NCBI RefSeq assembly: GCF_013031245.1
Contig: NZ_WPZL01000018.1
Coordinates: 1-64,000, forward strand
Reading direction: 5' to 3'
Source: Ruegeria lacuscaerulensis
GTDB taxonomy: Bacteria; Pseudomonadota; Alphaproteobacteria; Rhodobacterales; Rhodobacteraceae
Length of the DNA stretch: 64,000 nucleotides
The translations under genes were made by a program, and so were the position numbers. The notes under the pieces are model-generated. The model searched no databases. It saw only the letters and a program-made list of their open reading frames with translations, and was not told the origin of the DNA. Of this stretch, positions 4,013-36,632 are shown in pieces. Position 1 is the stretch's first letter, and the number at the start of each line of letters is the position of its first letter.

Positions 4013-4882
4013 GTGCGGGTAACGGACAGACTGCTGGCCCAGCGGGAAATGATGACACCGTCCGAGCGGCAACTGGTCAGCGTCCTGCTGGACGACTACC
4101 CCATGGCGGGCCTTGGCAGCATCACCGAGTTGGCCAGCGCGGCCTCGGTTTCGACAACTACCGTCGCCCGGATGCTGCAGAAAACCGGTTTCGACGGCTA
4201 TCCTCAGTTTCAGGCTGCCCTGCGTAGTGAAGTCAAAGAGATGATCTCGGGGCCTGTCGCCAAGCGTGACCTCTGGCAGAACGACTTGCCGGAAGAGCAT
4301 ATCCTGAACCGGTATTCCCAGCAGACGCTCGCCAATCAGAAGCGAACCATTGATGAGGTCGACCCGGCGGAATTTGACAGCTTTTGCAACCTGCTCTGTG
4401 ATCCCGACCGGCGCATCTTCATAACCGGGGGACGCATCACCGGCACCTTGGCGCAGTACCTTTACCTTCACTTGCAAATGATCCGCCCCGATGTCCGCCT
4501 GCTGCCCTTTGCGGCGTCCTGGACCCATGACCTGCTGGATATCCGCAAGAATGACGTTCTGATCGCCCTGGACGTGCGCCGTTATGAAAACTCAACCCTG
4601 CTGATCGGTCAGCTGTGCCACGAACGAGAGGCCGAGATCGTGCTGTTCACCGATCAGTGGCGCTCGCCGATTCACCGGCTGGCCAAACATACCTTCGCCG
4701 CGCGTATCGCCGTTCCGTCCGCGTGGGATTCCATGGCGTCCATTCTGGTGCTGATGGAATGCGTCATCGCCGAGGTGCAGGAACGACTTTGGGATTCAGT
4801 GAAAGAACGGACCGATGAGCTGGAACAAGCCTTTGACCGGACCAAACTATTCCGGAAATTTGGCCAAAGCTCGGGATCTTAA
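4013..4882 (+). CDS. RpiR/MurR family transcriptional regulator with SIS domain
   Basis: About 289 residues. The first 75 form an RpiR-type helix-turn-helix (MTPSERQLVSVLLDDYP...SITELASAASVSTTTVARML) and the rest a SIS domain (FITGGRITGTLAQYLYLHLQ, DVLIALDVRRYENSTLL). SIS domains normally sense phosphosugars. In Rhodobacteraceae such regulators also control amine and amino-acid catabolism, which fits this locus better. An ATG exists at 3995, but AGGAGG at 3999-4004 lies inside that extension and points to TTG 4010 or GTG 4013. The gene diverges from the amidohydrolase-TRAP operon and probably controls it through the two palindromes at 3889-3978. Confidence 0.88.
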   Translation: MRVTDRLLAQREMMTPSERQLVSVLLDDYPMAGLGSITELASAASVSTTTVARMLQKTGFDGYPQFQAALRSEVKEMISGPVAKRDLWQNDLPEEHILNRYSQQTLANQKRTIDEVDPAEFDSFCNLLCDPDRRIFITGGRITGTLAQYLYLHLQMIRPDVRLLPFAASWTHDLLDIRKNDVLIALDVRRYENSTLLIGQLCHEREAEIVLFTDQWRSPIHRLAKHTFAARIAVPSAWDSMASILVLMECVIAEVQERLWDSVKERTDELEQAFDRTKLFRKFGQSSGS

Positions 4883-4959
4883 CGCCTTTCAGCAGAAGAA
4901 AGGTACAACTGCACGTGAGGAGTGTTGCCAGCACGCAGGCGGGCGGTCACTTTGGTGTC

Positions 4960-5847
4960 ATGACATTTGTAACCGAAAACCAGCTACTCTTGCTGATCCT
5001 GTTCTTTCTGATCGGGTCGGTCGGCACTGCGTTTCTGTTTCGAAAACCGGCGGGGCACCGGGCGTGGAAGCTGGCTGATCTGGTCTGGGTCGTTCTGGGT
5101 GGGATTGGCGCGCTGGTGGCGGTGTTGGCCGGGCTTTATACGTCTGACAGTTCGCGGCTGGACCGGCAGATCGACGTGGCCTATGCCGCGACGCTGGCCT
5201 TTGATCGGGACGCCGCGCGGTTTCGTCTGAGGTTTTGCGATCCGGCCTATGATCCTGACACGGCCGTTTTGTGCGACAAGGTCGAGTTTCTGTCTGCCTC
5301 GACCGCCAGCAACGCCGACCTGCCCCTGTTCATTGCCGTGACCAACGAGGTCGCGCCCCTGCAAGGGCTGCAATTCCTGTTCGGGCGGCAAGCGAAAGAA
5401 GAACAGGACGACATGCGGGCGATGGCGGCCAAAGCCGACGCCTTCAGTATCGACCAGTTTCTGGTATTCACGACGCTGGACGATAAAACTCAGGCGGCCA
5501 TCGACAACATGCGCCGCAAGGTTCCCGCCATTGCCGGGGACTACCTGATCCTCGCTCAAAGTTATGATGATCTGGTGGAACAAGTCGGGAAACTGAAGGA
5601 TGAATGGGAATATCTGCAGGCCAATGCACATATCTTGGTTTTGCAGATCATCGCCCTGTGTCTGGTCAGCTTTGCCGCGCCCTTTCGCCTGGGCAAATCT
5701 GTCGTCGAATTACGCGCAACACTCAGCGGCGATAGGTCTGCGCCAACCGCTCCGGATCTGCCCCCAGAAAATACCGCGTCAGCGTCCACAGATTCCGAGC
5801 CCCACGGCGCACCCAACCCGCCCGCGCATAGCGGTCCGCGCTCGTAA
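4960..5847 (+). CDS. Uncharacterised membrane protein
   Basis: I do not recognise a family. The 295-residue protein has two close membrane spans (about residues 8-26 and 37-58), a soluble region of about 155 residues, and a third span around ILVLQIIALCLVSFAAPF, followed by a Pro/Ser-rich tail of about 55 residues. The soluble part is mixed-charge and helical, with two Cys residues in FCDPAYDPDTAVLC that could form a disulfide if periplasmic. ATG 4960 is used here; GTG 4915 would add 15 residues and has an AAAGG site. The last 125 bases overlap the convergent glycosyltransferase gene. Confidence 0.75.
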   Translation: MTFVTENQLLLLILFFLIGSVGTAFLFRKPAGHRAWKLADLVWVVLGGIGALVAVLAGLYTSDSSRLDRQIDVAYAATLAFDRDAARFRLRFCDPAYDPDTAVLCDKVEFLSASTASNADLPLFIAVTNEVAPLQGLQFLFGRQAKEEQDDMRAMAAKADAFSIDQFLVFTTLDDKTQAAIDNMRRKVPAIAGDYLILAQSYDDLVEQVGKLKDEWEYLQANAHILVLQIIALCLVSFAAPFRLGKSVVELRATLSGDRSAPTAPDLPPENTASASTDSEPHGAPNPPAHSGPRS

Positions 5848-8316: not shown

Positions 8317-8880
8317 TTACGCGCGCTCGGAATATTCCATGGTTTCCGTGTTCACCACGATCATTTCATCCTGACCAATGAAGGGCGGCACCATGACCTT
8401 GACGCCATTGTCCAGAATCGCTGGCTTGAACGAGTTCGCAGCGGTCTGTCCTTTGACCACCGGCTCGGTCTCGACGATTTTACAGGTCACTTTCTGGGGC
8501 AGCGTGGCGTTCAGCGCCTCACTTTCGTAGAATTCTACCAAAATAGTCATACCGTCCTGCAAAAACGGGCGACGTTCACCCAGCAGTTCGGCAGGCAGTT
8601 CAATCTGCTCGTAGGTTTCGGAATCCATGAACACCAGCATCCCGTCGGATTCGTACAGGAACTGCTGATCTTTTTGCTCCAGCCGGACACGCTCGACCTT
8701 GTCGGCAGAACGGAACCGTTCGTTCAGCTTTGAGCCATTGCGCAGGTTGCGCAATTCGACCTGCGCAAAAGCGCCGCCTTTACCGGGCTTTACATGGTCG
8801 ACCTTGACGGCAGCCCACAGCCCGTCGTTATGCTCAAGCACATTGCCGGGGCGAATTTCGTTCCCATTTATCTTGGGCAT
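8317..8880 (-). CDS. efp: Elongation factor P
   Basis: A 187-residue cytoplasmic translation factor that relieves ribosome stalling at polyproline stretches by entering the E site. It has the standard three beta-barrel domains and normal length. The loop [10 protein letters not shown] carries Lys34, the residue that EpmA/EpmB-type enzymes beta-lysylate. The C-terminal segment TMEYSERA is close to the usual ending. It is monocistronic: a good promoter at 8923-8951 and an intrinsic terminator at 8261-8291 bracket it. Confidence 0.97.
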
Positions 8881-8922
8881 GACTTAAATCCTTCACAAAC
8901 GGTTGATGCGTCAGTTCCCGAC

Positions 8923-8951
8923 CCTATATCTGGCGGGACCACACCTGACAA
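8923..8951 (-). promoter_or_regulatory. efp: Predicted efp promoter
   Basis: On the minus strand TTGTCA (8946-8951) and TATAGG (8923-8928) are separated by 17 bases, a good sigma-70-type arrangement. The implied start of transcription leaves a leader of about 35 bases before the efp ATG. Confidence 0.65.
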
Positions 8952-9098
8952 GACAACGAGACCTAGTGCTGCACTTGCAGAAAGCTATGCAAATGACGCA
9001 ACGCAACTATGCATTTCTGGTGTATCCGAATCACACCTAATAGGTCATAAGGACCCTCACGCCGAAAATGCAAGAGCAAGAACAACAAGGGAAACGAG

Positions 9099-9419
9099 AT
9101 GAGAGATTTCGTTGACGGCACTGCCTTTAATAACGAACAAGGCAATCGTGCACGCAAACTTTTCGCGGCCGTTGTGTTGGCCGCACTTGATGACGCCATC
9201 GCCGATGACAAAAAGTACGGCAACGGCCCGGAACAAATCGCCCGCTGGGCGCGTTCGCGTGATGGTCGCGAAGTGCTATCCTGTGCCGGTATCGACCCGA
9301 ACGAGCGCGTTGTCAGCGGACTGATGGAGTTTGTTGGCCGTGGCGTGCGTACTTCGGTTGCACTGTCGCGTGAAGAGAGCGAGCGTCGCAATGCCGCTCA
9401 GCAGGCAGAAGCCGCCTGA
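9099..9419 (+). CDS. Small conserved protein, probably DUF6280-like
   Basis: The 106-residue acidic, soluble, helical protein has no signal or membrane span. It reads like a compact helical bundle, with DGTAFNNEQGNRARKLFAAVVLAALDDAI at the start split over two helices and GPEQIARWARSRDGREVL in the middle. I believe close relatives occur across Rhodobacteraceae (DUF6280), but no function is known to me. GGGAAACGAG precedes the ATG. A strong terminator follows directly, so it is its own transcription unit; the 218-base upstream region holds the efp promoter and an untranslated leader. Confidence 0.82.
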   Translation: MRDFVDGTAFNNEQGNRARKLFAAVVLAALDDAIADDKKYGNGPEQIARWARSRDGREVLSCAGIDPNERVVSGLMEFVGRGVRTSVALSREESERRNAAQQAEAA

Positions 9420-9440
9420 TCCAAGGCGACCTCTGAAGGA

Positions 9441-9478
9441 AAAAGCGCGCTCCCGAGACCGGAGCGCGCTTTTCTTTT
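9441..9478. terminator. Strong bidirectional intrinsic terminator
   Basis: Thirteen-base perfect arms AAAAGCGCGCTCC and GGAGCGCGCTTTT (9441-9453, 9461-9473) with a 7-base loop are followed by T-rich sequence on the plus strand and by five T on the minus strand. It ends both the 9099 gene and the convergent membrane-protein gene. Confidence 0.92.
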
Positions 9479-9485
9479 GGGCACT

Positions 9486-10055
9486 TCAAAAAAACAAAAG
9501 CCACTGGCGAGCCACCCAGACTTCTGCGCCTAAAAGCACTGCAAAGAACAGTTTGGCCGAGACCGACAGCCCTCTCCTCCATAGCACCAAGTAGGCGGCT
9601 GAACAGATCGCTATGGATGCCGGCACCACCCACAGCGCGTTATGTGTCCTGTCCCAATAGCTGACCGGACTGTGAAACACCCAATCGCTCAGCGGCCAGA
9701 ACTGCGGCCGTCCATCGCCTGCATGCAGCAGGAAATCCATCCCCAGATGCAGAATCCCCGCGGACGCAGCAACCGTCAGAAAGTGCCAGGCGCGCCACAC
9801 CCCCAGCAACAGTGCCAGTCCCCACAGGATAAATGAGTTGTCGATGGCAAATACTGTCTGCCACGCGGGCGAAAAATAGAGCTGATCGAAAACCTCCTGT
9901 GCCGGAATACCCAAAATGTACAGAGAAGTACCGGCCATTACATAAAGCGACAGATCAGGCAGCAATGACCCCAGCAGCGCGGCCCAAAGGGTCTGTCCCT
10001 TCGCGGGGCGCGCGAAAACGGTGGCACCGATCAAAAGATGCGCAGGAGTGTTCAT
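9486..10055 (-). CDS. DUF457/YdjM-like membrane protein (putative metal-dependent hydrolase)
   Basis: A 189-residue inner-membrane protein with about five spans. The N-terminus NTPAHLLIG and the following GSLLPDLSLY resemble the DUF457 group, whose conserved His and Asp residues were proposed to bind metal; a later HLGMDFLLH adds a second His/Asp cluster. No enzymatic activity is established for the group. I start at ATG 10055; a TTG eight codons upstream has no advantage. It diverges from cobQ with 61 bases between the starts, and such neighbours are sometimes mislabelled as cobalamin proteins only because of this position. Confidence 0.75.
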   Translation of the reverse strand: MNTPAHLLIGATVFARPAKGQTLWAALLGSLLPDLSLYVMAGTSLYILGIPAQEVFDQLYFSPAWQTVFAIDNSFILWGLALLLGVWRAWHFLTVAASAGILHLGMDFLLHAGDGRPQFWPLSDWVFHSPVSYWDRTHNALWVVPASIAICSAAYLVLWRRGLSVSAKLFFAVLLGAEVWVARQWLLFF

Positions 10056-10116
10056 CCGGGGCTTTCCCTTTGTCTTCAAATCAGGTCATCTGCGCGTCAT
10101 CGTATAGGAGACACCC

Positions 10117-11574
10117 ATGGTTCGCGCCATCATGATTCAGGGGACCGGCAGCAACGTCGGAAAATCGGTTCTGGTCGCCGGGCTGGCGCGGGCCTACACA
10201 CGCCGCGGGTTGCGGGTTGCGCCGTTCAAGCCGCAGAACATGTCGAACAACGCGGCCGTAACCGAAAATGGTGGTGAGATCGGGCGCGCTCAGGCCCTGC
10301 AGGCGCGTGCGGCCAAGCGACCGACGCATACGGATATGAACCCGATCCTGTTGAAACCCGAGACTGATACCGGTGCTCAGATCATTATACAGGGTCAGCG
10401 CGCGGGAACGATGAAGGCGGGTGACTATCGCAAGGACAAGTCCAGGCTGCTTGGTGCTGCTCTGGAAAGCTTTGGCCGGCTGTGCAGCGACGCCGATCTG
10501 GTACTGATTGAGGGTGCCGGAAGTCCGGCCGAGACCAACCTGCGCAAAGGTGACATCGCGAATATGGGTTTCGCCCGTGCGGCCGGAGTGCCGGTGGTTC
10601 TGGTCGGCGATATCCACCGAGGCGGCGTGATCGCGCAGATAGTCGGAACACAGGCGGTTCTGGACAAAGATGATCTGACAATGATTCAGGGCTTTGCCGT
10701 CAACCGGTTCAAGGGCGACGTGTCCCTGTTCGACGAGGGTCGCGATGATATCGCCGTGCGCACTGGCTGGTCTTGTATGGGCGTTGTCCCGTGGTTCCAG
10801 GACGCATGGAAGCTCCCTGCCGAGGATATGATGGACATACGTTCCCATAGCGGAGGATCCTGCAAGGTTGTCGTGCCACAGTTGGAGCGGATGGCCAATT
10901 TCGACGATCTGGACCCGCTGTCAGCCGAGCCGGGCGTATCGGTCGAAATCATCCCCGCCGGTCGCCCCCTGCCCGGTGACGCCGACCTTGTATTGCTGCC
11001 CGGCAGCAAATCTACGATCGGCGATCTGAACTTTTTCCGGGCGCAAGGCTGGGACATTGACCTTTACGCCCATGTCCGTCGGGGCGGTCACGTTCTGGGC
11101 CTGTGCGGCGGCTACCAGATGCTGGGTAAAACCATCGCGGACCCGGATGGCGTCGACGGCCAACCGGGTACGGTAAAGGGCTTGGGCCTGCTGAATGTGA
11201 CCACCATCATGGCGGGCAAAAAGCAGGTCACACTGCGAACGGCCCGGACAATTCCGAACGCCGAGCCTGTCACTGGGTATGAGATTCACATGGGCCGGAC
11301 CGAAGGCCCGGATTGCGAACGTGCCTGGCTGGAGATTGAAAACCGGCCGGAAGGCGCCGCCAATCAGACTGGTCGCGTTCGCGGCAGCTACCTTCACGGT
11401 ATTTTTTCGTCAGACGCGTTCAGAGCCAGCTATCTGGAACAGTTGGGCGCAGTATCAGACCTGTCTTACGAGGATGGGGTAGAGGATACTCTGGATGCGC
11501 TGGCGGATCATCTGGAACGACATATGGACCTGGATCGCCTATTGGCGACGGCCAGGCCTCCAAGTCGGTCGTAA
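10117..11574 (+). CDS. cobQ: Cobyric acid synthase CobQ
   Basis: A 485-residue cytoplasmic ATP- and glutamine-dependent amidotransferase that amidates side chains b, d, e and g of adenosylcobyrinic acid a,c-diamide to give cobyric acid. The N-terminal dethiobiotin-synthetase-like domain starts with [18 protein letters not shown] (P-loop). The C-terminal class I-like glutaminase has [11 protein letters not shown] with the catalytic Cys, and a C-terminal SYLHGIF His. AGGAGA is placed eight to nine bases before the ATG. It stands apart from the main cob operon (starting at 17.3 kb) and no riboswitch precedes it; the divergent gap is only 61 bases. Confidence 0.97.
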
Positions 11575-16907: not shown

Positions 16908-16992
16908 CATTGGCTGGTCGCTTTTCCGACCTCGTGGAAATCAACGCGCGTCTCGCGCTTGACAAGCCCCCCGCCCGTGCCGCATGTCCCAT

Positions 16993-17180
16993 GCGTTGGT
17001 GTCCATCTTCAGATGGATGAAAAGGGAATGCGTCAGCGGTTTTCCGTCAAACGCAGCCGCCCCCGCGACCGTGACCGGAGAGGGTGCCCAAAGCCACTGG
17101 CCCACAAGGCCGGGAAGGCGGGACATCTGCCAGAGCCAAGCCTCTGACATCCGCAAGCCGGGAGACCTGCCAGCAGCCGA
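16993..17180 (+). ncRNA. Cobalamin riboswitch 1 (cob operon leader)
   Basis: The 366-base gap before the cob operon holds a full cobalamin riboswitch. I see the 5' part GGTGTCC...GATGAAAAGGGAA (16998-17028), the GCCGCCCCCGCGACCGTGA core strand (17055-17073), GCCACTGG and GGGAAGGCGG (17093-17122), and the B12 box GCAAGCCGGGAGACCTGCC (17153-17171). A TTGACA at 16959-16964 may be the -35 of its promoter, although the -10 is poor. Adenosylcobalamin binding should lower expression of the downstream corrin genes. Confidence 0.95.
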
Positions 17181-17249
17181 AGATGTAACCGGGCGGGGTG
17201 TTCCGGTGTCGGGTCCATGTGCAGACGCGTGGCCCGCATGAAACCCCGT

Positions 17250-17273
17250 CCCCCGCGAAGAGGATTTGGGGGG
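17250..17273 (+). promoter_or_regulatory. Possible RBS-sequestering hairpin of riboswitch 1
   Basis: CCCCC (17250-17254) can pair with GGGGGG (17268-17273), which touches the ATG at 17274. The loop holds AAGAGGA, the probable ribosome site. This would be a translational expression platform: the hairpin forms when cobalamin is bound and blocks initiation. The pairing is visible, the switching is inference. Confidence 0.45.
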
Positions 17274-17657
17274 ATGAGAGACATGACCGAGACCGCACCA
17301 GTCGAGTTGCTGGTCTGCACGACATGCCGTCGCGGGCAACCCGTCGAGGATGACGCACAGCGCCCGGGCACGTTGCTGCATAAAGCTTTGAAACAGGCCG
17401 ATCTGCCTCAGGGCATCACCCTGAAGCCGGTGGAATGCCTGTCGAACTGCGATCAGGGCTGTTCGATCGTGCTGCGTGGTGGACCGCATCGCTGGACCTT
17501 TATTTATGAGAACCTGAACGAAACCGATCATGTCGACGTTATTGTCGAAGGTGCGACCAGATACCTGGCCACTGATGATGGGCTGGTAAAGTGGCGTGAG
17601 CGCCCTGAACATTTCCGCAAAAACTGCGCCTCGCGCATTCCCCCGATTGGAGCTTGA
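17274..17657 (+). CDS. DUF1636 metal-binding protein, first gene of the cob operon
   Basis: A 127-residue soluble protein of the DUF1636 family, small proteins usually encoded with CobW or cobalamin genes. The Cys pattern is C-x2-C (LLVCTTC), C-x3-C-x3-C (VECLSNCDQGC) and a last Cys in FRKNCASRIPPI, a ferredoxin-like set suited to a metal or Fe-S cluster. A role in cobalt delivery is inferred from context only. ATG 17274 is directly after the riboswitch; ATG 17283 is an alternative. A second, divergent copy of the family is encoded at 32.8 kb. Confidence 0.85.
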   Translation: MRDMTETAPVELLVCTTCRRGQPVEDDAQRPGTLLHKALKQADLPQGITLKPVECLSNCDQGCSIVLRGGPHRWTFIYENLNETDHVDVIVEGATRYLATDDGLVKWRERPEHFRKNCASRIPPIGA

Positions 17658-17661
17658 GATC

Positions 17662-18717
17662 ATGTCGAACCTTGAAAAACTTCCCGTGACCGTGATCACC
17701 GGCTTTCTGGGCTCGGGCAAAACCACACTGGTGCGTCACCTGATGCAGAACCCTCAGGGCAAGCGTCTTGCCGTGGTGGTCAACGAGTTCGGTGATGTTG
17801 GCGTCGATGGCGATATCCTGAAATCCTGTGCCATCCCGGATTGCCCGGCGGAAAACATCATGGAACTGGCCAATGGCTGCATCTGTTGCACCGTGGCCGA
17901 TGATTTCATCCCAACCATCGAGACGCTGATGGCGCTGGAACCGCGCCCCGATCACATCCTGATCGAAACCTCTGGTCTGGCCCTGCCAAAACCGCTCCTT
18001 AAAGCGTTCGACTGGCCCGATATTCGGTCGAAAATCACTGTGGACGGCGTAATCGCTCTGGCAGACGCCGAAGCCGTCGCCGCCGGTCGCTTTGCTCCGA
18101 ATGTCGAGGCGGTGGACGCCCAGCGCTTGGCCGATGACTCGATCGACCACGAGACACCCCTGTCAGAGGTGTTCGAGGATCAGATCTCCTGCGCAGATAT
18201 CATCCTGCTGACCAAGCCCGATCTGGCCGGTCCGGAAGGCGTTGCGAAAGCCAAAGAGATCATAGCTGCCGAAGCCCCGCGCCCACTACCCGTTGTAGAA
18301 GTCGCCGAAGGCGCCGTGGATGTGCGCGTGGTACTGGGTCTGGAAGCCGCCGCCGAGGATGACATGGACGCCCGTCCGTCGCATCACGATGGTCACCACG
18401 ATCACGAGCATGACGACTTCGAAAGCATCATCGTCGAGTTGCCGGAACAGGCCGATCCTGCCGAGTTGGTCGCCAATATCGAACGTCTGGCAAATGAGCT
18501 GAACATCCTGCGCGTCAAAGGCTATGCCGCTGTTCAGGGCAAACCTATGCGCCTTCTGGTGCAGGCCGTTGGCGCCCGTGTGCGCCATCAGTACGACCGA
18601 CCGTGGGAACCCGGCGAAGAACGCCGCTCGCGTCTGGTGGTCATTGCCGAGCATGACGACATCAAAGAGGCAGCAATCCGCGATATCCTCGTGGGCGTTG
18701 CCGAGGCCGCTGAGTAA
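17662..18717 (+). CDS. cobW: CobW GTP-dependent metallochaperone
   Basis: A 351-residue COG0523 GTPase thought to load Co2+ onto the CobNST chelatase. The P-loop GFLGSGKTT is at 14-22, the metal-binding C-x-C-C (GCICC) at 73-76, and NEFGDVG and a TKPD-type guanine motif (LLTKPDL) are present. A His/Asp-rich loop (HHDGHHDHEHDD) sits near residues 240-252. The C-terminal CobW_C domain (NILRVKGYAAVQG) is intact. Its place directly before cobN supports the cobalt role over zinc-type relatives. Confidence 0.95.
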   Translation: MSNLEKLPVTVITGFLGSGKTTLVRHLMQNPQGKRLAVVVNEFGDVGVDGDILKSCAIPDCPAENIMELANGCICCTVADDFIPTIETLMALEPRPDHILIETSGLALPKPLLKAFDWPDIRSKITVDGVIALADAEAVAAGRFAPNVEAVDAQRLADDSIDHETPLSEVFEDQISCADIILLTKPDLAGPEGVAKAKEIIAAEAPRPLPVVEVAEGAVDVRVVLGLEAAAEDDMDARPSHHDGHHDHEHDDFESIIVELPEQADPAELVANIERLANELNILRVKGYAAVQGKPMRLLVQAVGARVRHQYDRPWEPGEERRSRLVVIAEHDDIKEAAIRDILVGVAEAAE

Positions 18718-30366: not shown

Positions 30367-31102
30367 TCTGACCCTGATCGGTATCGGCACCGGCAACCCG
30401 GACCACGTAACTTTTCAAGGCGCAAAGGCCATTCAGGCGGCGGATCTGATCCTGATCCCGCGCAAGGGCGAGAACAAAGCCGATCTGGCCGGGCTGCGTG
30501 AAGAGATCATCGCCGCTGTGACCGATACCCCGCCACAGATCGCCTATTTCGATATCCCCAAGCGCCGTGCGGATGATGGTTATCTGCGTGGTGTCGATGA
30601 ATGGCACGACGCAATTGCCCTGCGCTGGTACGAAGCGATCTCGGCCCACCCCAAGGCCCGCAATGTGGCCCTGCTGATCTGGGGAGATCCGTCGCTCTAT
30701 GACAGTTCCCTGCGAATCGCCTCAAGGCTGGAGCCGCAGCCGAAAACGCGTGTGATTCCGGGCATAACGGCCTTACAGGCGCTGACGGCAGCCCATGCGA
30801 TCCCGATCAACGATCTGGGCGCACCCTATGTCGTCACCACCGGGCGGCGCATCAGAGAAGAAGGCTGGCCGGAAAACGCCTCGAAAGTGGCAGTGATGCT
30901 GGACGGTGAGTGCTCGTTCCAAAGCCTTGATATGTCGGAGTACGACATTTGGTGGGGCGCATATGTCGGTATGAAACAGCAGATTCTGATCCAAGGACGC
31001 CTGAATGAGGTAGCCGAAGAGATTCTGGCCAATCGCGCCATGCACCGAGCCGCGCATGGCTGGATCATGGATATCTATTTGCTGAAAAAGCGTGGGATCT
31101 GA
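30359..31102 (+). CDS. cobF: Precorrin-6A synthase (deacetylating) CobF
   Basis: A 247-residue SAM enzyme that methylates C-1 of precorrin-5 and releases acetate; it marks the aerobic pathway. IGIGTGNPDHVTFQG, LIPRKGENKADLAGLR and LLIWGDPSLYDSSLRIA are the CobF motifs. It overlaps cobA by eight bases and is the last gene of the operon; I see no strong terminator before riboswitch 2. Confidence 0.96.
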   Translation: MYDLTLIGIGTGNPDHVTFQGAKAIQAADLILIPRKGENKADLAGLREEIIAAVTDTPPQIAYFDIPKRRADDGYLRGVDEWHDAIALRWYEAISAHPKARNVALLIWGDPSLYDSSLRIASRLEPQPKTRVIPGITALQALTAAHAIPINDLGAPYVVTTGRRIREEGWPENASKVAVMLDGECSFQSLDMSEYDIWWGAYVGMKQQILIQGRLNEVAEEILANRAMHRAAHGWIMDIYLLKKRGI

Positions 31103-31157
31103 CATAAAAGGTCGCAAATGACGATTGCGCCACCGCCGCCTTAACGGCTAAATGGAA

Positions 31158-31345
31158 GCGTCTGGTCCTGCCGGTGACATCCGGATGCTAAGAGGGAATT
31201 TGGTGCGACTGCCTGTACAGTCAACTCCAGAGCCGCCCCCGCGACTGTAAGCGGTGAGCCCCTGTTCAACCAGCCACTCCCATTCGTTGGGGGGAAGGCG
31301 AACAGAGGCATCGACCCGCAAGCCAGGAGACCTGCCAGGCATAAA
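31158..31345 (+). ncRNA. Cobalamin riboswitch 2 (cbtBA leader)
   Basis: A second full cobalamin riboswitch lies in the 287-base gap after cobF: CCGGTGACATCCGGATGCTAAG (about 31171) leading to AGGGAAT (31192), GCCGCCCCCGCGACTGTAAGCGG (31232-31254), GCCACTCC (31272), GGGGAAGGCG (31281-31290) and the B12 box GCAAGCCAGGAGACCTGCC (31318-31336). A possible promoter (TTGCTG at 31079, CATAAA at 31103, spacer 18) sits at the end of cobF. GAGGAG before the CbtB start is the likely control point. Confidence 0.95.
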
Positions 31346-31389
31346 TTGAAACACCGGCCGTCGGGTGCGGCGGCAGAGGAGAACTAAAG

Positions 31390-31560
31390 ATGGCAACACA
31401 AACAAAAACAGCATCCGCCGCGCGTACAGGCTTCGTTCCGGTCATGTTCGCAGTGGTACTGGGTCTGGGCATCGTCACGCTGACCGGTCACGTTCAGGCT
31501 GCAGCACTGCACGATGCTGCGCATGACGTACGTCACGCGACCGGCTTCCCCTGCCACTAA
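31390..31560 (+). CDS. cbtB: Cobalt transporter small subunit CbtB
   Basis: A 56-residue single-span membrane protein. The span is FVPVMFAVVLGLGIVTLTG, and the C-terminal tail LHDAAHDVRHATGFPCH carries the conserved His residues proposed to bind cobalt. CbtB/CbtA pairs were defined by their cobalamin riboswitches, exactly the arrangement here. AGGAGA precedes the ATG. It ends five bases before cbtA. Confidence 0.93.
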   Translation: MATQTKTASAARTGFVPVMFAVVLGLGIVTLTGHVQAAALHDAAHDVRHATGFPCH

Positions 31561-31564
31561 GACC

Positions 31565-32263
31565 ATGTTCAGTCGTATACTGACCAGCGCGTTGTTCGCT
31601 GGTGCTGCAGCGGGGCTGATTGCCGCCTTGCTGCAGTTGGTCTTTGTGCAACCTGTTTTGTTGCATGCTGAACTGTATGAATCCGGTGAATTGGTTCATT
31701 TCGGAGCTGAGGCCGTATCGGCCCATCCGGAATTGCCCGGCATGTTCTCGGACCTGTTCCGCGATGCGTTGAGTGTCATCTTCACCATGCTGACCTATAC
31801 CGGCTATGCACTGATGATGGTCGCGCTGATGTCCGTGGCCGAAGGCCAGGGCCACACGATTGACGGTCGCACAGGGGTTCTGTGGGGGCTGGCGGGGTTC
31901 ATCGCAATCCACCTTGCACCCGGCTTCACTTTGGCGCCCGAAGTACCCGGCGTGGCCGCGGCTGACGTTTATGCCCGTCAGGTCTGGTGGTTCGCGACCG
32001 TCGCTGCCGCTGTTGTTGCGCTATGGCTGATTGCCTTCGGCGGCAACCTGATCAGCTATGTGATCGCCGCTGCTTTGCTGCTGGCTCCGCACCTGATAGG
32101 CGCCCCCGAGCCGGATGTTTTCACCGGCCCCGTCCCGACCGAAATCGGGGCACTCTTCGCAGCCCGCGCCTTTGGCATCGGCCTGGTGGCCTGGGTCTTG
32201 GTAGGTGCATTTGCCGGCTACTTCTGGCAGAGCGAGAGCAAACGCGCCGAAGCAACGGCCTGA
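31565..32263 (+). CDS. cbtA: Cobalt transporter membrane subunit CbtA
   Basis: A 232-residue inner-membrane protein with about five to six spans. LFAGAAAGLIAALLQLVFVQP at the N-terminus and later HLAPGF and APHLIGAPEP are typical of CbtA. Together with CbtB it is a predicted cobalt uptake system, controlled by riboswitch 2. The start at 31565 follows the cbtB stop by four bases. A terminator at 32278-32310 closes the two-gene unit, although the next gene follows closely. Confidence 0.92.
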   Translation: MFSRILTSALFAGAAAGLIAALLQLVFVQPVLLHAELYESGELVHFGAEAVSAHPELPGMFSDLFRDALSVIFTMLTYTGYALMMVALMSVAEGQGHTIDGRTGVLWGLAGFIAIHLAPGFTLAPEVPGVAAADVYARQVWWFATVAAAVVALWLIAFGGNLISYVIAAALLLAPHLIGAPEPDVFTGPVPTEIGALFAARAFGIGLVAWVLVGAFAGYFWQSESKRAEATA

Positions 32264-32277
32264 TCCCAACCTTTCAA

Positions 32278-32310
32278 TCACGCCGGGTTTTGCCCGGCGT
32301 GATTCATTTT
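32278..32310 (+). terminator. Intrinsic terminator after cbtA
   Basis: Ten-base perfect arms TCACGCCGGG and CCCGGCGTGA (32278-32287, 32293-32302) with a TTTTG loop are followed by TTCATTTT. It may be partial, because the His-rich protein gene starts 18 bases later without an obvious promoter. Confidence 0.8.
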
Positions 32311-32327
32311 GTCTTCAAGGAAAAAAG

Positions 32328-32822
32328 ATGGCACGCTCACTTGCCCTTTTTGCTATCGGTCTGGTGTTCGGCAGCGGTGCAGGATTTGTTCTGGCCGCCG
32401 CCAATGGCGTCACTTTCGACGGCCACGACCATGGCGACCCTGCACACCACGGTGGCTCGGCCGCCGAGACCGTGGCGCATGATCATTCCACAGCCGTGAA
32501 CCTGCCGGCCGGTCCGGACGCACCCGGTCTGGAAATCGCGCTGACACAGGATCCAACGGCCGGGTGGAACCTGCACGTCATGCCGCAGAATTTTCGGTTC
32601 GCCCCGGAAAATGCGTCGGCGGCCGACAAGGATGGCGAAGGCCACGCCCACGTCTACATCAATGGCGAGAAACTGGCCCGGCTCTACGGCAACTGGATAC
32701 ATATTCCGGACCTGCCCAAAGGTGAAACCGAAGTCTCGGTCTCACTAAACGCCAACAGCCATAGCCCGCTGTTGGTTAACAACGTGCCGGTCAGCACGGC
32801 TGTTACGGTTCAGGTGGATTAA
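32328..32822 (+). CDS. His-rich exported protein, unknown function, downstream of cbtBA
   Basis: I do not recognise a named family. Of the 164 residues, 5-25 form a signal or anchor helix. Residues 33-53 contain six His with Asp (GHDHGDP, HH, HDH), a likely metal-binding tail. The C-terminal domain is beta-rich, with GEGHAHVYING, GNWIHIPDLPKGE and NANSHSPLLVNN, and more His residues. The position between CbtA and a DUF1636 gene suggests periplasmic metal capture or buffering, probably cobalt; that is inference. The start has AAGG eleven to twelve bases upstream. Its stop overlaps the convergent DUF1636 gene by four bases. Confidence 0.8.
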   Translation: MARSLALFAIGLVFGSGAGFVLAAANGVTFDGHDHGDPAHHGGSAAETVAHDHSTAVNLPAGPDAPGLEIALTQDPTAGWNLHVMPQNFRFAPENASAADKDGEGHAHVYINGEKLARLYGNWIHIPDLPKGETEVSVSLNANSHSPLLVNNVPVSTAVTVQVD

Positions 32823-33175
32823 AGCGCCGGAATACGCGCGCGCAGACACATCCGAAGTCGCCCGCAGGGTCGGGCGTCTTCAATCCATCCCCCGGGACTG
32901 TTTAGAAAGGCCTTGCAGGTGGCGGCGATATCGTTGGCATCCGCAACGACATTGATCCCAGAAAACACGTATGACGCGCGCCCGGCAGATTGCAGCGCCA
33001 GCGCCGTCGGCTCAGTGCAACTGCTGAAACAGGCGTGATCGGCAACAGTGACCTGATCATCCAGCCCAGCGCGGATCAGGGCCGCCTGAACGGCCTGCCT
33101 TTCGGCTTCACGGTTGCGCGTGCCCGAACAGCTGTTGCAGATCAATAGGCGTATTTGGTCCAAACCCGGCCTCAC
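32819..33175 (-). CDS. Second DUF1636-type metal-binding protein
   Basis: About 118 residues with the same Cys plan as the protein at 17274: LLICNSC (C-x2-C), HACFSSC (C-x3-C) and a C-terminal RMCLRARIP that parallels NCASRIPPI there. It differs otherwise and is clearly an old paralogue. GTG 33175 and TTG 33163 (GAGG six bases upstream) are possible starts; the frame is open to 33274 but those codons look non-coding. It is alone on the minus strand within the cobalt island and convergent with the His-rich gene. Confidence 0.75.
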   Translation of the reverse strand: MRPGLDQIRLLICNSCSGTRNREAERQAVQAALIRAGLDDQVTVADHACFSSCTEPTALALQSAGRASYVFSGINVVADANDIAATCKAFLNSPGGWIEDARPCGRLRMCLRARIPAL

Positions 33176-33303
33176 ATCCTGACGTTCGCACGTTTCTGCT
33201 GTTTTCCGACGGCCGGCGCAATCCTGAATACGCACAAGATTGTGAGTGCGCCGCACCGCCGTTTCTGGCAACAATCACACAGTCAATCCAAAGGAGACCG
33301 GGG

Positions 33304-33762
33304 ATGAAAGCGCTATGGACTGCGGTTGCTCTGCTGGCCCTGCCCGCCTGGGCAGATGAACCTCTGTCCGGTTGGGCGGTTTATCCCACCGACAAAAGCT
33401 ATGAAGATCTGGTCGCTGACACCAAGTCCGCCGTGAAGGAAAACGGGCTGATCGTGGTCACCCAGGCCGGGCCGACCAAGGCCGCTGCTGCGCGTGGCAT
33501 TGTAATTCCGGGCAATCTGGTAATTGGTGCTTTCAACAACGACTACGCCGTGCGCGTTCTGGAAACCTCGGTTCACGCGATGATCGAAGCGCCGATCCGG
33601 TTCTATGTGACCGAGAACGAGGACGGCACCGCCACCCTCTCCTACAAGACCCCCAGCTATGTGTTCGCACCTTATGTTTACGAGGGCGGGGAACCCCTGA
33701 GCGAGATTGCCGTCGAACTTGACACAAAGTTTCAGGCAGTGGCGGAATCCGCAGTCAAATAG
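33304..33762 (+). CDS. Exported DUF302 protein
   Basis: A 152-residue protein. Residues 1-17 are a signal peptide (ALLALPAWA then DEP). The rest fits DUF302: YEDLVADTKSAVKENGLIVV, NDYAVRVLETSVHAMIEAPIRFYV (in two parts) and LSYKTPSYVFAPY. DUF302 has no established activity; members are often exported and sometimes linked to metal or redox stress. AAAGGAGA precedes the ATG. It diverges from the second DUF1636 gene. Confidence 0.85.
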   Translation: MKALWTAVALLALPAWADEPLSGWAVYPTDKSYEDLVADTKSAVKENGLIVVTQAGPTKAAAARGIVIPGNLVIGAFNNDYAVRVLETSVHAMIEAPIRFYVTENEDGTATLSYKTPSYVFAPYVYEGGEPLSEIAVELDTKFQAVAESAVK

Positions 33763-33841
33763 TCACACTGACGTGAAGCTGCTTGCGTCCGGGCGTGTCC
33801 TCCGCAATCTGCTGTGACGTATAAATTTCGGAGCATGACTA

Positions 33842-35461
33842 ATGCAGGACCTCTCGCCGCGCGCTGCGGATCTTTTGGCCCAACGACTGTACGAGGCCGG
33901 ATGCCGTCACGCCTTTGGTATGCCGGGTGGCGAGGTTCTGACGCTGGTGGACGCGCTGGAACAGGCGGGGATCACTTTTCATCTGACCAAGCATGAAAAC
34001 GCCGCCGGTTTCATGGCCGAGGCGGTGCATCATCGTGACCGTGCGCCCGCCATTCTGGTGGCAACTCTCGGACCCGGCGCGATGAACGGGATCAACGTAG
34101 TTGCCAACGCGCTGCAGGATCGGGTGCCAATGATCGTACTGACCGGTTGCGTCGACGAGGATGAGGCGCTGACCTATACGCATCAGGTCATGGACCACGC
34201 GCAGGTATACCGCTCGATCACCAAGGGAACGTTCATGCTGACTGCGCAGGGCGCGGATATTGTCGCGGACAAGGCCGTTTCTCTGGCTAACCAGCCGCGC
34301 CCCGGGCCTGTGCATATCGATGTGCCGATCTCGGTCGCGGATACGCGCGTATCCGGTGTCAAACGCCGTCGCCTGGCTAAACCCGCAGTCGTCGCACCCG
34401 AGGGAAATTGCGTTGAAAAGGCCCGCCGCTGGGTGGCCGAGGCTGAACGGCCTATCGCGATTATCGGGCTGGATGTTCTCTATGACGACTCGCGCAATGT
34501 CGTGCAGGCGTTTCTGGAACATTTCAATATCCCGTTTGTAACCACCTACAAAGCCAAGGGCATCATTCCCGAAGATCATCCCCTATGCCTCGGTGGCGCC
34601 GGACTGTCGCCACTGGCCGACAAACATCTGGTGCCGTTGGTCGAACACGCCGATCTGGTTCTGTGCCTGGGCTATGACCCGATCGAGATGCGCCCCGGCT
34701 GGCGCGAAATCTGGGACCCCGAGGAAACGCGCGTCATCGACATTTCGGCCGTGGTCAACGATCACTACATGCATCAGGCCGGGCTGAACCTGGTGGCCCA
34801 TACAGGCGCTACACTGGAAGCCATTGCCAAAGGCAACACCGCCCGTGAGACTTGGCCCGGGGGTGAGCCCGCGCAGGTCAAGGCCGCCTTAGCGCAGGCT
34901 TTCCCCGCCGACGACGAGTGGGGGCCTGCCGCCATCATCGCCGAGACACGCGCGACCCTACCTGCCGAAACATTGGCGACGGCCGACAGCGGCGCACACC
35001 GCATCCTGCTGAGCCAGATGTGGGACTGTTCCGAAGAACGTGGGCTGATCCAATCCTCGGCCCTGTGCACCATGGGTTGCGCGGTGCCGATGGCCATTGG
35101 CCTGAAACTGGCCGAGCCTGACCGCCCGGTTATCAGCTTCTCCGGCGATGCCGGGTTCCTGATGGTGGCCGGAGAGTTGTCGACCGCCGCGGAAATGGGT
35201 GGCAACCCGATCTTTCTGGTCTTCGTCGACGCCAGCCTTGCGCTGATCGAACTCAAGCAACGTCAGCGTCAAATGGGCAACAAAGGCGTGGATTTCGACC
35301 GTCACGACTTTGCCGCCATGGGCCGCGCCTTTGGAGGTAACGGGCACACCGTCCGCAATCGTGAAGAGTTGCGCGCGGCGCTGAATGACGCCATGAAGGC
35401 CGACACGTTCACCGTAATTGCCGCCGAAATCGACCGTGGAGGTTATGATGGCCGGATCTGA
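33842..35461 (+). CDS. Thiamine diphosphate-dependent enzyme (acetolactate synthase-like)
   Basis: A 539-residue protein with the three ThDP-enzyme domains. The catalytic Glu52 sits in KHENAAGFMAE, the central domain spans about 190-320, and the ThDP/Mg site begins SFSGDAGFLM with Asp436. At the second Mg ligand, 27 residues on, the usual Asn is Asp463 (VFVDASLAL), and the adjacent pattern is also unusual. The substrate is unknown: acetolactate synthase, sulfoacetaldehyde and oxalyl-CoA enzymes all share this fold. It is translationally coupled to a class III CoA transferase, an arrangement reminiscent of oxalyl-CoA decarboxylase plus formyl-CoA transferase. Confidence 0.85.
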   Translation: MQDLSPRAADLLAQRLYEAGCRHAFGMPGGEVLTLVDALEQAGITFHLTKHENAAGFMAEAVHHRDRAPAILVATLGPGAMNGINVVANALQDRVPMIVLTGCVDEDEALTYTHQVMDHAQVYRSITKGTFMLTAQGADIVADKAVSLANQPRPGPVHIDVPISVADTRVSGVKRRRLAKPAVVAPEGNCVEKARRWVAEAERPIAIIGLDVLYDDSRNVVQAFLEHFNIPFVTTYKAKGIIPEDHPLCLGGAGLSPLADKHLVPLVEHADLVLCLGYDPIEMRPGWREIWDPEETRVIDISAVVNDHYMHQAGLNLVAHTGATLEAIAKGNTARETWPGGEPAQVKAALAQAFPADDEWGPAAIIAETRATLPAETLATADSGAHRILLSQMWDCSEERGLIQSSALCTMGCAVPMAIGLKLAEPDRPVISFSGDAGFLMVAGELSTAAEMGGNPIFLVFVDASLALIELKQRQRQMGNKGVDFDRHDFAAMGRAFGGNGHTVRNREELRAALNDAMKADTFTVIAAEIDRGGYDGRI

Positions 35462-36632
35462 AGGACCGTTGAAGGGCGTCAAGGTTCTGGACCTGTCGCG
35501 CATTCTGGCAGGGCCGACCTGCACGCAATTGCTGGGCGATCTGGGCGCCAGTATCATCAAGGTTGAAAACCCGGCTACGGGTGGCGACGACACACGGCAA
35601 TGGGGCCCTCCTTACGTTGAGGACGCCGAGGGCAACCGGTCCGACCTGAGCGCCTATTTCATGTCAGCCAACCGCAATAAGAAATCCGTCGCCATTGATA
35701 TTGCCACGCCGGAAGGACAGGCCGAGATCAAGCGGCTGGCCTCGCATGCCGACATCCTGATCGAGAACTTCAAACCCGGCGGGCTGGCAAAATACGGCCT
35801 GGACTACGAAACCCTGTCGCGAGAGTTTCCGAGCCTCGTCTACTGCTCAATCTCGGGTTATGGCCAAACCGGACCCAATTCGTCCAAACCCGGCTACGAC
35901 CTGATGGCGCAGGGGTATGGCGGCATCATGTCCCTGACCGGCGACCCTGATGGTGCACCGATGAAAGTGGGCGTTGGCATCGCCGACGTCATGTGTGGCA
36001 TGTACGCAAGTGTCGGCATTCTGGCTGCGCTGCGCCACCGGGATCTGACTGGCGAGGGCCAGCAAATCGATCTGGCCTTGGTTGACGCGCAGATCGCGTG
36101 GCTGATCAATGAAGGCGTGAACTACCTGACTTCGGGCAGTGTGCCTCAGCGGCGTGGTAACGGGCATCCCAATATTGTGCCGTATGATGTCTATGAAACG
36201 TCAGATGGCCACGTCATTCTGGCCGTCGGCAATGACAGCCAGTTCCGGCGGTGTTGCGACTTCATCAATCACCCCGAACTGGCTGACGACCCGCGCTTCG
36301 CCACCAACCCGGCCCGTCTGGAACACCGTGACGCCTTGAACGCCGTGCTGCGCCCTGCCCTGCAAAACTATGACATGGCCACCGTCATTGCAGAGCTGGA
36401 GTCTCGCAAGGTACCCGTCGGTCCGGTGCAAACCATGGATCAGGTATTTGCCACCAGACAGGTCGCCGCCCGGCAGATGCAGATCGCAATGCAGGCTGGG
36501 CCCGGCGAGGTGCAACTGATCGGAAATCCGCTGAAATTGTCGCGTACGCCGGTCACGTATCGCACGGCTCCGCCCGAATTCGGGGCGGACACTCAGGCAG
36601 TTCTGAGCGCTGAAAACCCGTTCGAGGATTGA
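35448..36632 (+). CDS. Class III (CaiB/BaiF) CoA transferase
   Basis: A 394-residue enzyme that moves CoA between carboxylic acids. LKGVKVLDLSRILAGPTCTQ and DLGASIIKVE are the N-terminal family motifs; the nucleophilic Asp151 is in GYDLMAQG; NRNKKSVAIDI is typical. Two ATGs exist at 35445 and 35448; GGAGG at 35438-35442 favours the second. It overlaps the ThDP gene by 14 bases, so the two are surely co-expressed and probably act on one substrate. A terminator follows. Confidence 0.92.
   Translation: MAGSEGPLKGVKVLDLSRILAGPTCTQLLGDLGASIIKVENPATGGDDTRQWGPPYVEDAEGNRSDLSAYFMSANRNKKSVAIDIATPEGQAEIKRLASHADILIENFKPGGLAKYGLDYETLSREFPSLVYCSISGYGQTGPNSSKPGYDLMAQGYGGIMSLTGDPDGAPMKVGVGIADVMCGMYASVGILAALRHRDLTGEGQQIDLALVDAQIAWLINEGVNYLTSGSVPQRRGNGHPNIVPYDVYETSDGHVILAVGNDSQFRRCCDFINHPELADDPRFATNPARLEHRDALNAVLRPALQNYDMATVIAELESRKVPVGPVQTMDQVFATRQVAARQMQIAMQAGPGEVQLIGNPLKLSRTPVTYRTAPPEFGADTQAVLSAENPFED

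Follow-up and report, generated by a model that had tools for sequence, protein, structure and literature searches.

An unnamed histidine-rich protein encoded after CbtBA in many marine bacteria may catch cobalt for the importer

The first 64,000 nucleotides of contig NZ_WPZL01000018.1 from Ruegeria lacuscaerulensis (hereafter the window) contain a cobalamin riboswitch that is followed on the same strand by cbtB, cbtA and a gene for a histidine-rich protein 3' of CbtBA, provisionally called HisP here. These elements form one cassette. They do not form one five-gene system with the DUF1636 and DUF302 genes that come next, as an earlier reading of the sequence (the original prediction) had proposed. 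On balance, we are inclined to regard the riboswitch-cbtB-cbtA-hisP unit as a B12-repressed cobalt-import cassette, with HisP as an accessory capture subunit of one CbtBA subfamily.

The linkage of hisP to cbtBA was profiled in two samples. A scan of named genomes by profile and pattern yielded 386 confirmed loci, ranked by closeness to the query. In all of the best 80 of these 386, a single strand carries cbtB, cbtA and hisP in this order (locus L055 begins inside cbtB). The cassette was found in at least four contexts: Ruegeria, where it lies 3' of cobF; Leisingera/Phaeobacter, where many relatives carry it between a DUF1636 gene and cobF; Sulfitobacter, where it lies 5' of DUF1636a-CobW-CobN; and Thalassospira/Stappiaceae, where no cob gene was detected in the fetched stretch around it. 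It spans Rhodobacterales, Thalassospira, Stappiaceae and one Aestuariivirgaceae draft. The second sample (the family draw) comprised 149 genomes that were searched with the HisP, CbtA, DUF1636 and DUF302 proteins and for which the coordinates were combined, excluding one CbtA match below the cut-off (G033) and using DUF1636 rows from cbtA-bearing genomes only. It held 44 HisP matches in 40 genomes; ranks 1-18 all lie within 1.5 kb of cbtA, and ranks 19-44 never do. Further draws of 289 class genomes and 398 phylum genomes confined full-length HisP matches to the class of the window. Beyond this class, the phylum draw gave just two partial matches (G696 and G769, profile positions ~50-163) and none of full length.

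Phylogenetic analysis revealed that HisP is restricted to one group of CbtA. In a maximum-likelihood tree of 104 CbtA rows, the HisP label needs 3 changes versus a shuffled mean of 24.3 and none of 500 shuffles was as low, although near-copies in the tree favor clustering of this kind. A single branch with 100/99 support unites 79 rows, namely all 77 HisP rows and 2 without HisP. The tree has no outgroup, so a clade here means the rows to one side of a branch; long branches lead to several of the HisP-less rows. Ruegeria sequences are the closest named relatives of the window CbtA. The distances among HisP proteins correlate with those among CbtA proteins (r 0.84, 72 rows), as expected for a co-travelling unit, though shared ancestry by itself also correlates.

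The riboswitch, CbtB and CbtA, all named in the original prediction, were borne out by profile searches (Table 1). The riboswitch scored 119.9 bits against RF00174 (gathering threshold 31.5, E-value 1.6e-29), and a scan for the riboswitch core and B12-box motif placed it 5' of cbtA in 104 of 107 loci (79/80 with HisP and 25/27 without). CbtA exceeded the cut-offs of PF09490 (158.4 bits, cut-off 30.7, E-value 3.7e-46) and TIGR02458 (249.1 bits, cut-off 182.9), and the family draw held 45 cbtA loci above cut-off in 44 genomes. CbtB matched PF09489 (69.1 bits, cut-off 27, E-value 3.7e-19) and fell narrowly under the NCBIfam cut-off of TIGR02459 (56.3 versus 64.4 bits); we therefore assign it to the Pfam family CbtB in a cbtBA context and not to the TIGR02459 equivalog.

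Table 1 Features from the cobalamin riboswitch to the DUF302 gene (window positions)
Feature	Position	Strand	Basis
Cobalamin riboswitch RF00174, control region of cbtB-cbtA-hisP	31146-31353	+	Covariance model (cmscan)
cbtB, 56 amino acids, C-terminal tail ALHDAAHDVRHATGFPCH	31390-31560	+	PF09489
cbtA, 232 amino acids, predicted cobalt transporter membrane subunit	31565-32263	+	PF09490, TIGR02458
Hairpin, 13-bp stem with 8 G-C pairs, terminator-like	32276-32304	+	Between cbtA and hisP
hisP, 164 amino acids, candidate accessory subunit of CbtBA	32328-32822	+	Conserved linkage; helix, His-rich linker and beta-sandwich
DUF1636 copy b (DUF1636b), 118 amino acids, convergent with hisP, linked neighbour	32819-33175	-	PF07845, likeness to 9JN8
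DUF302 gene, judged outside the system; groups with thiamine pyrophosphate (TPP)-enzyme and coenzyme A (CoA)-transferase genes 3' of it	33304-33762	+	PF03625

CbtAB has been predicted to be a cobalt transporter under cobalamin riboswitches (Rodionov 2003, as cited in PMC4771312 and PMC2667541). In Methylococcus capsulatus, knock-down of cbtB improved growth in 1 uM cobalt medium (PMC13108547), and coenzyme B12 repressed cbtB 43-fold in a B12 producer (PMC8123684). Cobalt import by CbtBA is an older prediction that has recent genetic support in another species. At one place in our data (L136, positions 4315-5723, the same place as L169, positions 8444-10923), CbtBA lacks both HisP and the riboswitch motif and is preceded by short genes that resemble, by eye, a sigma factor and membrane sensor/anti-sigma proteins. 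This looks like CbtBA under different control.

An empty site was found in G043, the only congener in the draw, which has no CbtA, no HisP match and one DUF1636. Its cob cluster runs in the order cobF, DUF302, TPP enzyme and CoA transferase. Alignment blocks between the window and this genome stop at 31077 and restart at 33326 (window positions). The intervening stretch measures 2248 bases in the window but 130 in G043, too few at this site for the 208-base riboswitch. In this one case, the riboswitch, cbtBA, hisP and DUF1636b were gained or lost together, in either direction, while DUF302 stayed.

The cassette is mobile and travels as one piece. The eight genomes L067-L074, from seven genera, show 99.96-99.98% identity to L067 over 14.9-16.5 kb around DUF1636-CbtB-CbtA-HisP, reflecting either recent spread of a plasmid or element or shared contamination. 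A mobilizable Leisingera plasmid carries DUF1636-CbtB-CbtA-'hypothetical protein' adjoining recombinase and Tn3 transposase genes. No PLSDB record covered 80% of a 6-kb query (best place 39% at 84%). Travel as a unit, seen in the L067-L074 identity and beside the plasmid-borne Tn3 transposase, would also suit a HisP that plays no part in cobalt import and is a passenger, retained through a common operon history and mobile spread. We consider this very unlikely, as the linkage holds in at least four contexts and across several lineages and the residues described below are invariant.

HisP is predicted to consist of a helix, a His-rich linker and a beta-sandwich. In the AlphaFold2 model, a helix covers residues 4-25 at a predicted local distance difference test (pLDDT) score of only ~60, confidence is low up to ~50, and the beta-sandwich covers ~57-163 (pLDDT ~97). 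The six His that had been counted within residues 33-53 are exactly 33, 35, 40, 41, 51 and 53, and the beta domain said to bear more of them is predicted as well, with further His at 83, 106, 108, 125 and 145. We aligned the window protein with those of 47 of the 80 loci, omitting duplicates, near-copies and rows in which letters or starts were unclear. Across these 48 linked proteins G11, G15, G19, F20, H33, D34, H35, H53, H106, H108, H125 and H145 are invariant, and H51 is kept in 47 and H41 in 41. The GHxH motif is conserved in the 80 by construction because GHAH is part of the search pattern, which does not contain GxxxGxxxG. H106 and H108 are also invariant in 20 HisP proteins obtained by protein search in the family draw, a more divergent set in which H125 is not (L018 deviates).

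The motif GxxxGxxxG is present in 80/80 cbtA-linked HisP. Among 12 unlinked relatives, whose N-terminus was taken as the open frame with an unverified start, it occurs near the N-terminus in one (L028), and two more pattern matches lie elsewhere in long frames. GxxxG is a helix-packing motif. Judging from the sequence, HisP looks membrane-anchored through this helix, with a helix partner, rather than released, because a cleaved signal peptide would have no reason to conserve a glycine zipper. The exported protein of the original prediction would then not be a released one. Cobalt capture by such a protein is plausible.

HisP itself matched no Pfam or NCBIfam family at E-values up to 1 (CbiN, NikK/NikL-type proteins and DUF4399 were considered), and its relatives gave only weak, scattered Pfam matches. 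DUF4399 was dropped as the HisP domain (E-value 0.06-0.1 in just two unlinked relatives), as was a relation to CusF (E-value 0.4). Among the six families matched by the 48 aligned members at E-values up to 0.1, PCuAC (PF04314) was absent. In unlinked relatives, the HisP beta domain stands behind a PCuAC domain, with an E-value of 3.5e-12 in L029 (above cut-off) and 2.1e-6 in L030 (just under). The distant relatives are thus fused to the domain of PCuAC copper chaperones, whereas HisP has no PCuAC match and has a predicted membrane helix. His-rich linkers are typical metal sponges, and HisP could be a periplasmic buffer or protector for cobalt, copper or zinc that is co-regulated with CbtBA and limits mis-metallation with no uptake step. 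The PCuAC fusions and the occurrence of the beta domain away from cbtA agree with such a role; the invariant GxxxGxxxG anchor and the confinement to one CbtA group favor a physical partner of CbtBA instead, and we regard a pure buffer as rather unlikely.

Other proteins with HisP-like domains were noted by eye. At L151 (6425-7273), the domain is followed by an apparent cupredoxin-like beta domain and adjoins branched-chain-type ATP-binding cassette (ABC) transporter genes. A recurring conserved cluster in L152, L154, L163 and L165-L167 encodes proteins in which a PCuAC or PCuAC-like part precedes the HisP-like domain. Near them are an ABC-transporter binding protein (IKIGFQ....TGIGAAYGRWY; L152, L154, L163, L165, L167), a membrane protein starting HAS/HTS..G..LLLPTD.Y (L152, L154, L163) and genes resembling hydantoinase A/B (L163, L165-L167). 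Separately, a weak HisP-like match with an internal stop adjoins cbtA at L157 (355-684), in a draft genome from a different family within the class of the window, and looks like a degenerate hisP.

The cbtA and hisP genes are usually separated by a predicted hairpin. In the window, cbtB and cbtA are 4 bases apart and cbtA and hisP 64; the hairpin has a T-rich tail and ends 23 nt 5' of the hisP ATG, with AAGGA in between. Eight terminator-like sites were found in 31000-33900 versus 3.0 in shuffles, and this stem ties for the longest with one that sits within cbtA. The window gap folds at z = -5.1. Among 59 distinct cbtA-hisP gaps of at least 30 nt, drawn from 81 loci examined, folding relative to dinucleotide shuffles reached z < -2 in 51 and z < -3 in 35; the other 8 miss z -2, clearly so in L063, L102 and L104. 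The stem sequence varies among lineages and the stem itself persists. Sulfitobacter-type loci have no hairpin and a gap of at most 11 nt in 11 of 12 cases (81 in L098), and translation of cbtA and hisP is probably coupled there. A promoter scan, uninformative for this organism, gave no sigma-70-like site in 31000-33900 (shuffles 1.0). There is hardly any room for a promoter between the hairpin and hisP, so hisP expression would depend on either read-through or a promoter within cbtA.

The hairpin could keep HisP substoichiometric, as might suit a protein that gates CbtBA, its loaded His linker shutting the importer when periplasmic cobalt is sufficient. We find such a negative regulator quite improbable. 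A unit controlled by a B12 riboswitch is expected to be on when B12 is short, when capture would be wanted. A point in favor of a gate is the apparent harm done by CbtBA-mediated cobalt import in one bacterium at 1 uM Co (PMC13108547).

We therefore return to HisP as a capture subunit. CbtA with CbtB would move Co(II) across the inner membrane, which is the known prediction. In the arrangement that we infer, the GxxxGxxxG helix of HisP would anchor it in the membrane, probably in contact with CbtA, CbtB or HisP itself, and the His-rich linker and His-bearing beta domain would capture cobalt on the periplasmic side and pass it to the His/Cys tail of CbtB and to CbtA. The hairpin 3' of cbtA would probably tune the amount of HisP or shield the cbtBA message. 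DUF1636b would be a convergent, functionally adjacent protein of thioredoxin-like ferredoxin type, with DUF302 outside.

By analogy with accessory proteins of other importers, HisP is most likely the capture subunit of its cassette. CbiN, from the energy-coupling factor cobalt transporter CbiMNQO, is a small accessory protein of the membrane whose extracytoplasmic segment lies over the metal pocket (PMC7689651). Like HisP as proposed here, it is a membrane accessory of a metal importer, but it has two helices and a short loop, whereas HisP combines a single predicted helix with a His-rich linker and a beta domain. NikK and NikL (NikKMLQO) are additional components of Ni/Co importers, some of them near B12 genes or riboswitches (PMC2667541). 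Their accessory role resembles the one proposed for HisP, although the transporter is different and HisP has no Pfam match. The CbtB-CbtA order and the riboswitch are shared between known CbtAB systems and the window cassette, in which HisP is the extra component.

Several observations weigh against this interpretation. In the family draw, 27 of the 45 cbtA loci have no adjoining HisP and 18 have one. The conservation with cbtBA that the original prediction implied thus holds for HisP in the 80 cassette loci and the 18 top-ranked matches, though not for most cbtA loci, and HisP is not required for CbtBA as such. Since CbtBA without HisP is common, HisP would improve one subfamily and would not be a universal part. 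Two long-branched CbtA rows (L136 and L138) sit in the HisP group without HisP. CbtB carries the same kind of His/Cys tail in both groups, and the tails of the displayed CbtB rows are similar with HisP present or absent. Two strong class-level matches, G331 and G296, are larger proteins near ABC-transporter genes and not beside cbtA: by eye, the HisP-like domain is followed by a second beta domain in G331, with cbtA on another contig, and preceded by a PCuAC-like part in G296, with no cbtA found. The relatives of HisP suggest copper as much as cobalt. Its beta domain gave no Foldseek match at E-values up to 0.001, the best structural match (Z 8.5, root-mean-square deviation 2.5, 82 aligned) belongs to generic immunoglobulin/fibronectin III-like sandwiches, and sequence searches gave no solved metal-binding relative (CusF, E-value 0.4). 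The hairpin resembles a terminator, so co-transcription of cbtA and hisP can only be presumed. Finally, overexpression of cbtAB alone gave no relief of the cobalt-limitation growth defect in Methylobacterium (PMC2773004), and the importer role is therefore not settled everywhere.

We also considered whether a CbtB richer in His substitutes for HisP and rejected this, as the mean number of His in the last 40 residues was 5.0 in 84 rows with HisP (near-identical copies included) versus 4.2 in 28 rows without (one place, L136 = L169, counted twice). A stronger version of the capture-subunit interpretation is possible but doubtful. It would define a three-subunit importer class of Alphaproteobacteria, CbtB-CbtA-HisP, in which HisP is a required periplasmic capture subunit, packed on the CbtBA helices by its glycine zipper and dosed by the conserved hairpin; DUF1636b would be a linked partner with a redox or metal-site function.

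The gene 3' of hisP belongs to DUF1636, as had been proposed (63.7 bits against PF07845, gathering score 31.6, E-value 2.7e-17; its GTG start was picked by alignment with relatives), and is the second copy of the window, the first of which precedes CobW. It adjoins hisP on the minus strand, and the two stop codons overlap in TTAA at 32819-32822. The six-Cys plan ascribed to it was not found: we counted seven Cys (13, 16, 49, 53, 87, 104 and 110), and C13, C16, C49 and C53 are the only ones invariant in 35 aligned DUF1636 proteins. PF07845 is present in 104 of the 149 family-draw genomes. Of the 45 cbtA loci, 23 have a DUF1636 gene no more than 1.5 kb away; HisP is present at 12 of these and absent from 11. 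Proximity to cbtA thus recurs as the original prediction would have it, but the gene is convergent or elsewhere in the unit; the convergent layout with hisP recurs in Thalassospira, Stappia and Roseibium loci.

The predicted model of DUF1636b (mean pLDDT 90.6) shares fold and sequence family with 9JN8 (ORF378, a thioredoxin-like ferredoxin of Rhodobacter capsulatus), with a Foldseek E-value of 1.1e-8, TM-scores of 0.72/0.77 and a profile E-value of 8.9e-31 for the DUF1636 alignment. Compared with 9JN8, DUF1636b has extra Cys at 87, 104 and 110. DUF1636 has been placed in the thioredoxin-like [2Fe-2S] ferredoxin fold, with three of the four cluster Cys conserved plus one atypical Cys (PMC4520260). 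The predicted fold speaks for a redox or metal-site role and not for a demonstrated cobalt sensor. We found no support for the sensing that had been attributed to the DUF1636 and DUF302 proteins. The source genome has a third DUF1636 copy at another location (G000:C25:34626-34865).

The DUF302 protein was also correctly named (34.1 bits against PF03625, gathering score 23, E-value 2.4e-8). Its expected conservation with cbtBA was not seen. In the family draw, 3 of the 45 cbtA loci have DUF302 at a distance of up to 5 kb, and there is no genome-level association with cbtA (8 of the 29 genomes with a close DUF302 match; Fisher p = 1.0). DUF302 has no cbtA within 5 kb in 26 of these genomes, and 20 of the 26 loci entered a count of TPP enzymes, including G031, where cbtA is ~8 kb off. 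In 10 of these 20 other loci, the TPP enzyme of the window occurs within ~2 kb at 62-82% identity, 8 of them also with the CoA transferase. Both genes adjoin DUF302 in G043 (L111); neither was found in G122 (L170), where the contig stops ~400 bases past DUF302. Within the window, DUF302, the TPP-dependent enzyme and the CoA transferase (33304-36632) form the trio that recurs in those 8 loci. DUF302 is visible at 18 of the 80 cassette loci, and the TPP enzyme starts at most 1.2 kb downstream in every one. DUF302 was therefore rejected as a cobalt gene, being outside the empty-site boundary, without cbtA association and in the company of the TPP enzyme, and we judge it to be an unrelated neighbour that is part of a TPP-enzyme/CoA-transferase module.

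A single capture-deliver-sense system made of the riboswitch and all five genes is therefore hardly credible. The genes do adjoin in the window, as the tight group originally described after CbtBA, and DUF302 lies within 4 kb of cbtA in 17 of the 80 loci. However, DUF1636b is on the opposite strand, convergent with hisP, and we therefore rejected a five-gene operon; DUF302 is excluded by the evidence just given.

The cassette follows a cobalamin cluster at 17.2-31.1 kb of the window, in which CobW and CobF were established by profile; the other cob labels are our reading of the open reading frames and served as search queries. The window has two cobalamin riboswitches by cmscan. The other one (16980-17188) lies immediately 5' of DUF1636a, which is followed by CobW (16980-18717).

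No mention of a third CbtBA component was met in a partial literature survey that included CbtBA partners. CbtBA is present in 44 of the 149 family-draw genomes, and HisP would provide a concrete handle on this importer. Our interpretation predicts where cobalt would first bind and offers residues for mutation. It would also give a role to the protein annotated as hypothetical on the plasmid, and DUF302 should lose any cobalt annotation that is based on proximity. In many marine bacteria, CbtBA is followed by this unnamed His-rich protein, which may catch cobalt for the importer.

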